Shown: positions 3,512 to 8,559 of the stretch, piece after piece
Numbering within the stretch: the first letter of the stretch is position 1
Layout of the letters: every line of letters starts with the position of its first letter
NCBI RefSeq assembly: GCF_008016455.1
Contig: NZ_SAXU01000001.1
Location: 434,001-498,000, forward strand
From: Brachyspira aalborgi
Lineage (GTDB): Bacteria > Spirochaetota > Brachyspiria > Brachyspirales > Brachyspiraceae
Length of the DNA stretch: 64,000 nucleotides
Direction of reading: 5' to 3'
Position numbers and translations under genes: made by a program
Notes under the pieces: model-generated
Told to the model about the DNA's origin: nothing
What the model saw: only the letters and a program-made list of their open reading frames with translations
The model's database searches: none

Positions 3512-4372
3512 TTATTTATAACTATAATAGCATTTTTGACAAACTTCGGGAACGGTTTTATTTTTAACGGAATTTGCCAAATCGCTTCTTAATTTTTTTC
3601 TTAAAGATTTATATTCCGTTTGATTCCAAATTTCTAATATTGATTTTTCCATTATATTTCCCATTTTGCTTTTTCTAAAATAATCATTACAACAAATAAG
3701 TATATTTCCGTCTTTATCTATAACTGGGTTTCTTGTGCTATCGCAATATTTAAAAGGTTTCAATGTCTTAACTTCAATCGCTCCCGCTCTCGTGCTGAGA
3801 TTTTCTAGATTTAAAGTTTGTATATGAAATGACGCTCCGATTTCTTTTTGTATCTCGGATAATTTTGCAAATAATTTTTCGGGATTTTTATCATGTATAG
3901 TTATTATAAATTGGTCTAATCCCGCTTCTTTATATTTTTTAGTATTTTCAATATTCAAAAAATCTCCGTTGCTATGCATCATAATTGTAGCTTTCGGAAC
4001 TTTATCATGCGTATATTTTATAAAAGTTATTAATCTTTCGTCTAAAGTCGGCTCGTTAAAAAAATTAAAATTAATCCAACCGCTAAAATTCAATTTTGAA
4101 ATATCGTCTATAGCTTTATAAATTATTTTTTCATCGGCATATAATTTTGGCGTTTCATAATGGCAATTTGGACAATAATGACATTTTCTATTGCAATAGG
4201 TTGAAGTTTCTATACTAATTCCCGTTAAAAAATTATAATCTCCGTATTTTAACAAATTTGATAATTTAGCATAAAGCGAATAAATTTTTTCTATAAAATA
4301 TAATTGTTCCGCCGACATATTTGGCAATAATTTTTTAGCCGTATTTCTTAAAAATAATTTAATTTTTTTCAT
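3512..4372 (-). CDS. Radical SAM / SPASM-domain protein
   Basis: This 286-residue protein has the radical SAM cluster motif C60-N-R-K-C64-H-Y-C67 (CxxxCxxC), which binds a [4Fe-4S] cluster that cleaves S-adenosylmethionine. The C-terminal ~80 residues form a SPASM-type region: a Cys before DSTRNP, then GNILICCND, the GN(I)-x-EIW signature and a terminal CQKC pair, expected to bind auxiliary Fe-S clusters. Such enzymes modify peptides, sugars or cofactors; the substrate is not evident and no precursor-peptide gene is adjacent. The upstream spacer holds a pentanucleotide microsatellite and a terminator-like hairpin that could control its expression. Confidence 0.75.
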   Translation of the reverse strand: MKKIKLFLRNTAKKLLPNMSAEQLYFIEKIYSLYAKLSNLLKYGDYNFLTGISIETSTYCNRKCHYCPNCHYETPKLYADEKIIYKAIDDISKLNFSGWINFNFFNEPTLDERLITFIKYTHDKVPKATIMMHSNGDFLNIENTKKYKEAGLDQFIITIHDKNPEKLFAKLSEIQKEIGASFHIQTLNLENLSTRAGAIEVKTLKPFKYCDSTRNPVIDKDGNILICCNDYFRKSKMGNIMEKSILEIWNQTEYKSLRKKLRSDLANSVKNKTVPEVCQKCYYSYK

Positions 4373-5427: not shown

Positions 5428-5461
5428 AAATCCTATAACTTATTAAAAAGCTATAGGATTT
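5428..5461. terminator. Bidirectional rho-independent terminator
   Basis: AAATCCTATA (5428-5437) pairs perfectly with TATAGGATTT (5452-5461), a 10-bp stem with a 14-nt loop. It lies between the stops of deoD (+) and the convergent transporter operon (-), with T/A runs on both sides. Confidence 0.7.
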
Positions 5462-5478
5462 TATTAAAACAAAATATT

Positions 5479-6408
5479 TTAATTTATAAATAAATCATTA
5501 ATATCAACCTCGTTTTCTATCATTTTATTCTCTCTCATAAATGATTCGGTTTTTCTTATTGAAGTTATATCTTTATCAGTTATATCTATATTAAAATCAT
5601 ACATAAGATACATTTCTTTTACGGCTTCTTCCGTTAATCCCGTTTCTCTTGCCGATATAGAAATTATCTCATCATAATTATTATTCATATAATCTAAAAC
5701 TTCTATCTCGGCATTAATAAATGTATCAACTAACTCTTTATTATTATTGTAGAATTTTTCGCTTGTAGCCACAACAACTACTGGTTCTATAAGGCTCTCT
5801 CCCGTAGTAACTATGTTATATCCTTCTTTCGCCGTATTATAAGCAGAAGGTCCCGCCAATAGCGCCATGTCTACAGAACCGCTTGATAATGCAGCATAAG
5901 ATTCTGGAATTCCCATAGATATAAATTGAATATCCGATTCTTTCAACCCCAAAGAATTCAAATAAGCGGCTAAAAGCTCATGTAGTATAGTTCCTTTAGG
6001 ACCAGCAACTTTCTTTCCTATAATATCTTTAGAGCCTTTTATAATATTTTTAGAAAATATAACAAAAGATTTAGGTGACCTGCTATAAGTATTTATTATT
6101 TTTATATCCGCTCCATTTGCTTTTGCAAGTATAACGGAAGTAGAGCCGACAGCATATAAAAATTGTATATCGCCAGATGCCAGCGCTTGCGTCTGGTCTG
6201 GTCCAGTAGTTAATTCGGAATATACTACGGGAAGATTATATTTGCTAAAAGCGTTGCTAAATATAAATTTATCTCTTTCTACCATAGAAGGCACATTTAA
6301 AGGTGATTTAACATAAGTTAATGCTATTTGTTTAACTGAAAAATCAGACTTATTTTTACAGCTCAAAACTAATATGATACATAATAGTAATTTTAAAATA
6401 TTTTTCAT
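5479..6408 (-). CDS. ABC importer substrate-binding lipoprotein, NitT/TauT/SsuA-like
   Basis: This 309-residue protein has a lipoprotein signal peptide with lipobox VLSC, followed by a type-II periplasmic binding fold of the nitrate/sulfonate/taurine/thiamine-precursor kind: GPDQTQALASGDIQF near residue 70, VAGPKGTILHELL near 135 and SGSVDMALLAGP near 180. It should capture a small organic or anionic ligand and deliver it to the permease encoded upstream. It is the last gene of a four-gene minus-strand operon, 18 nt after the ATPase gene. The ligand cannot be told from sequence. The family is heterogeneous, so names such as SsuA or TauA would be over-precise. Confidence 0.8.
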   Translation of the reverse strand: MKNILKLLLCIILVLSCKNKSDFSVKQIALTYVKSPLNVPSMVERDKFIFSNAFSKYNLPVVYSELTTGPDQTQALASGDIQFLYAVGSTSVILAKANGADIKIINTYSRSPKSFVIFSKNIIKGSKDIIGKKVAGPKGTILHELLAAYLNSLGLKESDIQFISMGIPESYAALSSGSVDMALLAGPSAYNTAKEGYNIVTTGESLIEPVVVVATSEKFYNNNKELVDTFINAEIEVLDYMNNNYDEIISISARETGLTEEAVKEMYLMYDFNIDITDKDITSIRKTESFMRENKMIENEVDINDLFIN

Positions 6409-6426
6409 TTTTTGCTCCTTAAAAAG

Positions 6427-7140
6427 TTAATTTTTAATCGAATTTAAAATATCCTTTTTTAATTCTATAAAAAAAGGTGATAGTATATTTCTATCATAGT
6501 TTTCATGATTTAAGTCATATTCTTTTTTTATTTTACCTCCTTCAAATATAATTATTTTCTTTCCTAAAATTAAAGATTCGTCAATACTATGAGTGACAAA
6601 TATTATAGATTTTTTACTATTCATACAAATATTTATAGTCTCATTTTGCAAAGTCTCCCTAGTAAAGTAATCTAAAGATGCAAAAGGCTCGTCCATCAAT
6701 ATTATATCGCTATCGTTAGCCAAAGCTCTTGCAATAGCTACTCTTTGCATCATTCCAAGCGAAAGCTGATAAGGATAAGCCTTATCAAAACCGTTCAATC
6801 CAATCATATTTATAAGATTATATATTTTATCTTTACATTCTTTTTTCTCCGATTTATTCATTCCAAAAGTTATATTTGAAAACACATTAAGCCAAGGCAT
6901 TAATCTATGTTCTTGAAAAACTATAGATATTTTAGCGTTATCTTCGATTATTATTTTACCGCTATCTTGAATCTCTAATTGAGCTAATAATCTCAAAAAT
7001 GTAGTTTTACCACATCCGCTCTTTCCAAGTATTACGGTTATACCTTCGGGAAAGGATTCAAAATTTATATTTTGTATCACTTTTATTTTTTTATTGTTAA
7101 CAAAAAATGATTTGGAAATATTTTCCGTTCTAATTATCAA
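6427..7140 (-). CDS. ABC importer ATP-binding protein, SsuB/TauB-like
   Basis: This 237-residue ATPase energises the importer. It has Walker A GKSGCGKTT (around residue 40), Q-loop FQEHRLMPW, a signature LSLGMMQRVAIARAL (LSLGM instead of the usual LSGGM), Walker B IILMDEPFASLD and the switch His in VTHSIDE. FQEHRLMPWLNV is typical of the nitrate/sulfonate/taurine branch. The apparent start is TTG at 7140, preceded by GGAG at proper spacing inside the end of the permease gene, so the two genes overlap by 11 nt and are probably translationally coupled. Confidence 0.85.
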   Translation of the reverse strand: MIIRTENISKSFFVNNKKIKVIQNINFESFPEGITVILGKSGCGKTTFLRLLAQLEIQDSGKIIIEDNAKISIVFQEHRLMPWLNVFSNITFGMNKSEKKECKDKIYNLINMIGLNGFDKAYPYQLSLGMMQRVAIARALANDSDIILMDEPFASLDYFTRETLQNETINICMNSKKSIIFVTHSIDESLILGKKIIIFEGGKIKKEYDLNHENYDRNILSPFFIELKKDILNSIKN

Positions 7141-7891
7141 TATTAACTCCTTCAGTATTATAGAAAGTAAATTTTCTTATAAAATAATAAAAAATTCTAT
7201 CTAATAAATAACCTAAAATACCTATTGTAATTATTCCAACTATAACTTTATCCGACCTTGATAATTGTTGGGCATCAAGTATCATATAACCTAATCCGCT
7301 TGAAGCCGCTATCATTTCAGCTCCTATAATAGCCCTAAAACTATAACCAAGTCCTATTTTCATTCCCGCTAATATTTCAGGTAATGCACTCGGTAAAATT
7401 ATACAAAAAAATATTTTAAACTTTGAGAAATTAAGAGAATATCCAACTTCTAAAAGTTTTTTATCAACCGAAAATATACCTTGTCTTATATTAATAAGTA
7501 TTGGAAAAAATGAAGCAAGAACAATAATTATAATTTTAGATTTTTCGCCTATGCCAAACCATAATATTAATATTGCTATTAAACTTATAGGCGGTATATT
7601 TCTCATAAATTCTATTATATTCTTAAAATATATAAATATTTGGGGTTTTGTCCCAAGTATCATTCCAAATACAAAAGCTAAAATAAACGCTATAGAAAAT
7701 CCAGTTAAAACTCTTAAAAGGCTTACATAAATATTTTTTATTAAATTGCCGTTAATAGTTTCTATATAGAATGTTTTTAATACTTTTTGAGGGGATGGAA
7801 GAACATATTCACTCCATATATTAGATTTGCTCGCTATAAACCAGAGTATTATAATTATAATTAATATCATATTTGATTTTATAAATTTCAT
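7130..7891 (-). CDS. ABC importer permease, SsuC/TauC-like
   Basis: This 253-residue inner-membrane protein has about six transmembrane helices and the EAA-type cytoplasmic loop near residues 150-180 (GYSLNFSKFKIFFCIILPSA), which contacts the ATPase. The PPISLIAILILWFGIGEKSKI segment is characteristic of nitrate/sulfonate/taurine-type permeases (BPD_transp_1). The gene overlaps the upstream hydrogenase-domain-like gene by 4 nt (ATGA) and the downstream ATPase gene by 11 nt, so the four proteins are almost certainly made together. Confidence 0.85.
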   Translation of the reverse strand: MKFIKSNMILIIIIILWFIASKSNIWSEYVLPSPQKVLKTFYIETINGNLIKNIYVSLLRVLTGFSIAFILAFVFGMILGTKPQIFIYFKNIIEFMRNIPPISLIAILILWFGIGEKSKIIIIVLASFFPILINIRQGIFSVDKKLLEVGYSLNFSKFKIFFCIILPSALPEILAGMKIGLGYSFRAIIGAEMIAASSGLGYMILDAQQLSRSDKVIVGIITIGILGYLLDRIFYYFIRKFTFYNTEGVNIDN

Positions 7892-8502
7892 TTTTTATCT
7901 ATACCGTCTCCGTTATGGCAACCGTTATCGCAGTAAAGAGCCTCTAAAATTTTACTGTTCATGTATAATTTATTTTTAAAGACTTTCAATATATTATCCT
8001 CTCCTGTGACAGAATAAACCTTTTCAAATCCTTTAAAAAATCCAAGAGGAATGGGACTCGAATTTAGTTTTCTTTTTTTATTTTCATCCAATATTATATT
8101 ATTTTCTTTTACAAATTCTATCCAAGTTTTAAAAATTAATCCTTCTATATTTAATGAATTTCCAAAATTGGATAAAGCAACACAAGGTGTTATTATAATT
8201 ATATTATTTTCAATTTGAGCCTTTAATTCTATAGCAGTTTCTATTAAAATAGGATTAATATTAGCATATTCATAGCTATTATCATTATTATCTATATATT
8301 CATAAATTTTAGGGCATCTTGAATCAATTATACATTTATCAGAATTTAAATATTTTTTTCTATACTTATTTTTAACTATATCGGAACAGTTTTTATTAGG
8401 CAATACTATCTCAAAACCGTTTTTTGATAGAATATATTTTAAATATTCTATATCGTATTGAACCATTATAACAGGATTAACCCAAACATAATTCTTATTC
8501 AT
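7888..8502 (-). CDS. Small protein resembling the [FeFe]-hydrogenase H-cluster domain
   Basis: This 204-residue protein has no signal peptide. It has the motif order of the large-subunit C-terminal domain of [FeFe] hydrogenases: DSRCPKIYEYI (Cys63, as in TSCCP), ITPCVA (Cys107, as in VMPC), a V-T-G-x-x-N-I-L-K-V-F stretch (165-175), and EALYC-DNGC-HNGDG (Cys191 and Cys195, as in EVMACxGGCxxGGG). Thus all four [4Fe-4S] ligand positions seem kept, while the catalytic Cys before CP is Arg62, the Met of MPC is Thr105 and the Lys of PCxxK is Leu110. Inference: it binds an Fe-S cluster but is not a hydrogenase. It is the first gene of the ABC importer operon, so it may sense, handle or process the imported ligand. 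Confidence 0.55.
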   Translation of the reverse strand: MNKNYVWVNPVIMVQYDIEYLKYILSKNGFEIVLPNKNCSDIVKNKYRKKYLNSDKCIIDSRCPKIYEYIDNNDNSYEYANINPILIETAIELKAQIENNIIIITPCVALSNFGNSLNIEGLIFKTWIEFVKENNIILDENKKRKLNSSPIPLGFFKGFEKVYSVTGEDNILKVFKNKLYMNSKILEALYCDNGCHNGDGIDKK

Positions 8503-8530
8503 AAAATAACCTTAAAAAAATTGTTAGATA

Positions 8531-8559
8531 AATATAACATATATAAAAAAATTTGTCAA
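8531..8559 (-). promoter_or_regulatory. Promoter of the hydrogenase-domain/ABC importer operon
   Basis: TTGACA (8554-8559) and TATATT (8531-8536), spacer exactly 17 bp, on the minus strand. The predicted start is near 8524, giving a leader of about 22 nt that includes AAGG before the ATG at 8502. Confidence 0.7.

Follow-up and report, generated by a model that had tools for sequence, protein, structure and literature searches.

A compact hydrogenase-like H-domain protein encoded with an SsuA/TauT-type ABC importer in spirochaetes

Results

A four-gene operon on the minus strand

The window is a 64,000-nucleotide stretch of a Brachyspira aalborgi contig (NZ_SAXU01000001.1, positions 434,001 to 498,000). 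Between positions 8502 and 5479, its minus strand encodes a 204-residue protein, a permease, an ATPase and a binding lipoprotein, in that order (Table 1). Spacings between the four genes are -4, -11 and +18 nucleotides, and the permease ATG overlaps the stop codon of the first gene. An earlier note on this DNA described four closely packed genes behind one near-consensus promoter, and the open reading frames agree with it in order and strand. The promoter-like site, which matches the consensus at 11 of 12 positions, is the best in the region and lies just 5' of the first start codon; a terminator-like hairpin closes the operon. Sites with at least nine matches are equally common in shuffled sequence, so only the strength and position of this site count. 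A divergent DivIC-like gene borders the operon on one side and a convergent phosphorylase gene on the other. A radical SAM/SPASM protein is encoded nearby on the same strand (window positions 3512-4372).

Table 1. Features of the operon, in window coordinates.
Feature	Position	Strand	Details
Compact H-domain protein gene, 204 aa	7888..8502	-	predicted [4Fe-4S] ligands Cys63, Cys107, Cys191, Cys195; Arg62 at catalytic Cys position
ABC importer permease gene, NitT/TauT/Ssu type, BPD_transp_1, 253 aa	7130..7891	-	PF00528 E 5e-27
ABC importer ATPase gene, 237 aa, TTG start	6427..7140	-	PF00005 E 6e-28
Substrate-binding lipoprotein gene, NMT1/SsuA family, 309 aa, lipobox LVLSC	5479..6408	-	PF09084 E 2e-17
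Promoter-like site TTGACA-N17-TATATT, extended -10 TG	8531..8559	-	11/12 consensus matches
Terminator-like hairpin closing operon	5428..5461	-	14 pairs

By their Pfam matches (PF09084, PF00528 and PF00005), the three transporter proteins are members of the NitT/TauT/Ssu superfamily. The best solved relatives of the binding protein are aliphatic sulfonate- and taurine-binding proteins. We considered assignment to SsuABC and rejected it, as curated equivalog and subfamily scores fall below their cut-offs: TIGR01728 gives the binding protein 135 bits (cut-off 163.5), and scores against taurine models fall far short of their cut-offs.

The first protein resembles the H-domain of [FeFe]-hydrogenases

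The earlier note proposed that the 204-residue protein is related to [FeFe]-hydrogenase large subunits and suggested a search with the H-domain profile. By itself, the window protein falls short in that search (Pfam accession PF02906, 18.0 bits, E 0.0023, gathering cut-off 22.1, best stretch residues 161-198). Two homologues pass, at 23.0 and 25.7 bits, and another scores 13.8 bits. A model of monomeric group B hydrogenases (TIGR04105) matches residues 3-110 of the window protein (E 4e-4). The PF02906 match and the TIGR04105 match lie in opposite halves, both of the window protein and of the H-domain.

Profile-profile comparison spans both halves. We aligned a nine-member family profile with 15 spirochaete hydrogenase and hydrogenase-like sequences using hhalign and obtained a full-length, colinear match (199 columns, probability 96.8, E 2.4e-10) in which Cys63, Cys107, Cys191 and Cys195 fall on the four [4Fe-4S] ligands, the role that had been proposed for them. 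An 11-member profile repeats the match (E 5e-10), and a control with two other operon families gives a probability of 0.4. Of 20 PDB matches to the family profile, the 18 best are hydrogenases, at weak significance (E 0.05-0.17). The joint alignment of family and hydrogenase sequences (n=20) has only ten invariant columns, and the four cysteines are among them. The window protein begins at the H-domain, and the N-terminal ferredoxin domains are missing, as had been claimed. These alignments indicate that the first operon protein is a compact, minimal [FeFe]-hydrogenase H-domain.

Structure prediction, also suggested in the earlier note, recovers the fold with hydrogenase sequences in the alignment and does not recover it without them. 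The first AlphaFold2 model, built from nine family sequences, has a pLDDT of 86 (under 50 for residues 194-204), and its 50 closest PDB matches include no hydrogenase. The second model, from an alignment that includes hydrogenase rows, reaches pLDDT 91; when it was compared with the whole PDB, [FeFe]-hydrogenases took the first nine places (TM 0.55-0.65, probability 0.99-1.00). This second test depends on the hypothesis because the hydrogenase rows guided the model. In our reading, strands and helices of the first model can be matched in order, one after another, to the aligned hydrogenase segments.

The H-domain gene accompanies the importer in 11 spirochaete genomes

We identified the H-domain family in 11 genomes in a survey that covered Spirochaetota well. 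Two belong to the genus of the window, in which 25 further genomes yielded one carrier besides the genome of the window, and nine belong to the treponeme family. Scans of 84,980 genomes with single-sequence and two-sequence searches returned carrier G010 only; they say little about other phyla, since the second scan used patterns taken from the N-terminus. Plasmid and viral collections yielded no relative of the H-domain protein.

The link to an SsuA/TauT-type importer is constant. The permease gene directly follows the H-domain gene and is itself followed by the ATPase gene in 11/11 carriers, with a 4-nucleotide overlap between the first two genes in most. Ten carriers have the binding-protein gene next, and in the remaining one the contig stops shortly after the ATPase gene.

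Homologues extend down to 37% identity with the window protein. Thirteen alignment columns ever hold cysteine across the 11 homologues, and exactly four, at Cys63, Cys107, Cys191 and Cys195, are invariant, which argues that the four-cysteine pattern is not due to chance. Positions lining the di-iron cavity of hydrogenases are invariant in eight of ten cases versus a background of 17% (hypergeometric p 1e-5), for positions that were selected from prior hydrogenase knowledge and with a mapping at Pro84/Ile85 that may be off by one. Pairwise dN/dS between treponeme carriers is 0.09-0.21, and the family is under purifying selection.

Catalytic residues and maturases are missing

Lys358 (C. pasteurianum CpI numbering, used throughout) is important in [FeFe]-hydrogenase. 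Cys299, the catalytic cysteine that transfers protons, is important as well, along with Met353 and Met497 (PMC11376134). Alignment with hydrogenases places Arg62 at Cys299, Thr105 at Met353 and Leu110 at Lys358, in line with the loss of catalytic residues that had been noticed from the window alone. Arg62 and Leu110 are invariant in 11/11 homologues, and Thr105 is replaced by Ser in one.

The di-iron unit of the H-cluster is built by HydF and HydG. We found both above cut-off in one of nine carriers tested, the genome of the window (G000), which also encodes two other hydrogenases. Neither was found above cut-off in G010 and seven treponeme-family carriers, and G010 encodes no PF02906 protein other than its H-domain family member. 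A complete H-cluster is therefore impossible by the known route in eight of the nine carriers tested. Judged from these residues and gene contents, the family protein is not a hydrogenase and is predicted to be unable to carry an H-cluster in most carriers.

We also detected other PF02906 proteins in this survey. Group B-type proteins of about 500 residues with a catalytic cysteine pair and lysine occur in several treponeme-family genomes (L073-L076, L078 and L079), L071 and L081 fall under the same observation, and G339 encodes two group A enzymes. HydF and HydG were not found above cut-off in the treponeme-family genomes with group B-type hydrogenases or in G339. Either the maturases of those treponeme-family genomes are very divergent or their group B- and A-type proteins are not H2 enzymes. 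A gene cluster of a distant spirochaete (L058:1085-5596) encodes two H-domain proteins, one of which resembles sensory hydrogenases.

The importer persists without the H-domain gene

Six other genomes of the genus contain an orthologous importer (binding protein 72-73% identical) that lacks the H-domain gene. In a tree of importer proteins, lineages that bear the H-domain gene enclose five of these six, which makes a single loss of the gene probable. The importer thus does not need the H-domain protein. This pattern implies that the H-domain protein is an accessory to the importer, and a downstream handler or regulator is more likely than a structural part of the transporter.

A fifth gene, encoding about 180 residues, follows the binding-protein gene in three treponemes and lies on a separate contig in a fourth. 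Short remnants of it are present near the binding-protein gene in L121 (G355:C1:2363572-2363664) and L122 (G331:C1:273684-273773), showing gene decay in two close genomes. Plasmid pECOED of E. coli ED1a encodes a related importer (L113:4927-8404, binding protein 34% identical) flanked by two copies of the fifth-protein family, and a relative of the fifth protein follows an Azospirillum importer with a 28% identical binding protein. A profile match (E 1.2e-16) links the fifth proteins, and the family has no Pfam match. A label of FmdE was discarded, as it came from one weak match (E 0.018) that relatives do not repeat. The fifth protein belongs to the importer type, Proteobacteria included. The H-domain protein is absent from the pECOED and Azospirillum loci and, as far as seen, is therefore a spirochaete addition.

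Ferredoxin or flavodoxin genes lie near the operon in three treponemes, but as neighbours they are not conserved. Two-cluster ferredoxin genes are found at L106:2927-3160 and L107:1823-3010, and L107 also encodes a C_GCAxxG_C_C redox protein.

Discussion

These observations suggest that some gut spirochaetes have put an old hydrogenase scaffold to new use, either in handling or in sensing a molecule that the importer brings in. Our main reading, to which we give a probability of about 0.4, is that the product of the first gene is a minimal H-domain in the cytosol and that it binds an imported anion in its pocket and reduces or cleaves it. The protein would hold one [4Fe-4S] cluster on the four conserved cysteines, have no di-iron site and make no H2. 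Its former di-iron cavity, refitted with invariant, family-specific residues, would place an arginine beside the cluster. Made in step with the SsuA/TauT-type importer, it could accept the anionic solute after uptake, or a derived product, at a site adjoining the cluster, where ferredoxin or flavodoxin of the cell might then supply the electrons for reduction or cleavage. The H-domain protein would in this way add cytosolic processing to the importer as an accessory. With four cysteine ligands and no open iron site, electron transfer or sensing fits as well as substrate chemistry. The bolder proposal that this bacterial H-domain has become a [4Fe-4S] enzyme with a new reduction or cleavage reaction, its cavity binding the imported organic anion, strikes us as unlikely. 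If true, the hydrogenase fold would have gained another catalytic role besides its first.

The protein could instead be a sensor or gate. Its H-domain would read the redox state or the level of ligand in the cytosol and regulate either the importer, through contact with its ATPase or its permease, or the expression of the importer. The position of the gene at the head of the operon, its translational coupling to the permease and the independence of the importer in relatives fit this idea, and H-domain proteins with a sensory role are known (HydS, groups C and D; PMC10407848, PMC13104023). However, in the 204 residues profile searches detect neither a DNA-binding, PAS or kinase domain nor any other output domain, sensory hydrogenases have a full H-cluster plus extra domains, and the conservation of the pocket points to a small-molecule site. 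We regard regulation as possible, if somewhat improbable; sequence cannot separate it from handling of the solute.

A role as a cofactor or metal carrier is doubtful. The importer would bring in a chelated metal or the precursor of a cofactor, for which the H-domain protein would serve as cytosolic acceptor, or that protein would act as an Fe-S carrier, as is thought for Nar1. Nar1 offers a precedent, since its H-domain has the same ligand site, lacks a di-iron unit and may hold another cluster in its cavity (PMC12621388), but the window protein lacks both the N-terminal ferredoxin-like site and the C-terminal targeting tryptophan of Nar1. Moreover, the binding protein resembles sulfonate and taurine binders rather than metal-chelate binders.

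Since PF09084 also covers NMT1/THI5-like proteins, the binding protein might take up a pyrimidine precursor, with the Fe-S protein assisting thiamine synthesis. Genome G311 encodes thiS, thiF, thiG and a thiH-like gene after the operon. However, this linkage was seen in G311 alone, where the TPP riboswitch sits after the operon and before thiS, and scans of the window and of eight carrier loci found no TPP riboswitch 5' of the operon, which makes thiamine-precursor import very improbable. A true minimal hydrogenase or a decaying, functionless pseudogene is scarcely credible: the maturases and two other hydrogenases in the genome of the window would allow the former, but the catalytic Cys, Met and Lys are replaced (with Arg and Leu fixed in every homologue), most carriers tested lack the maturases and the gene is under purifying selection.

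The proposed handling of an imported anion by a minimal H-domain has a concrete route to its substrate, because direct assays can be run on the binding protein. Known members of the H-domain fold comprise H2 enzymes, putative H2 sensors and the eukaryotic Fe-S assembly factor Nar1. A literature search for an H-domain protein in an importer operon found nothing relevant, in agreement with the earlier note, which knew of no described system of this make-up. A bacterial H-domain of about 200 residues, linked to an importer and present in maturase-free genomes, would provide a minimal scaffold, made by nature, for the [4Fe-4S] half of the H-cluster, and ways of re-using the di-iron cavity could be tested on it.

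Comparison with known systems

The operon shares a permease, an ATPase and an NMT1/SsuA-type binding protein with the SsuABC, TauABC and NitT systems. It differs from them in having no adjoining sulfonate monooxygenase, a sub-cut-off match to the SsuA subfamily model and an H-domain gene in first place. Among curated models, those of the Sec-assisted organometallic (SAO) importer SaoPAX are the best for the permease (SaoP, 168 bits) and ATPase (SaoA, 172 bits). Cut-offs of 295 and 360 bits lie far above these scores, and SaoX gives 38 bits (cut-off 300), so we rejected membership in the SAO system as well. The Sao proteins described in PMC13188914 include no H-domain protein.

The first protein most resembles the H-domain of [FeFe]-hydrogenases (PF02906), especially the monomeric group B enzymes, in its colinear fold order, its full-length profile match, its four [4Fe-4S] ligands and the ExxxCxxGCxxG motif around the last two cysteines. 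Unlike these enzymes, the family lacks ferredoxin clusters and the catalytic Cys, Met and Lys, most of its carriers lack the maturases, and its members (about 200 residues) are shorter than the H-domains with which they align.

By analogy, the best reading is a putative [4Fe-4S] pocket protein that is like eukaryotic Nar1 (IOP1, CIAO3) in lacking the di-iron site. Nar1 has no di-iron unit because the maturases are absent, and our argument from maturase absence is the same. Compared by description, both proteins keep the H-domain [4Fe-4S] site where maturases are lacking (PMC12621388). The window protein differs in having neither the N-terminal cluster domain nor the C-terminal tryptophan: its N-terminus already belongs to the H-domain, and its last residues are GDGIDKK. 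It is also bacterial, has a single cluster site and is encoded in an operon with an importer.
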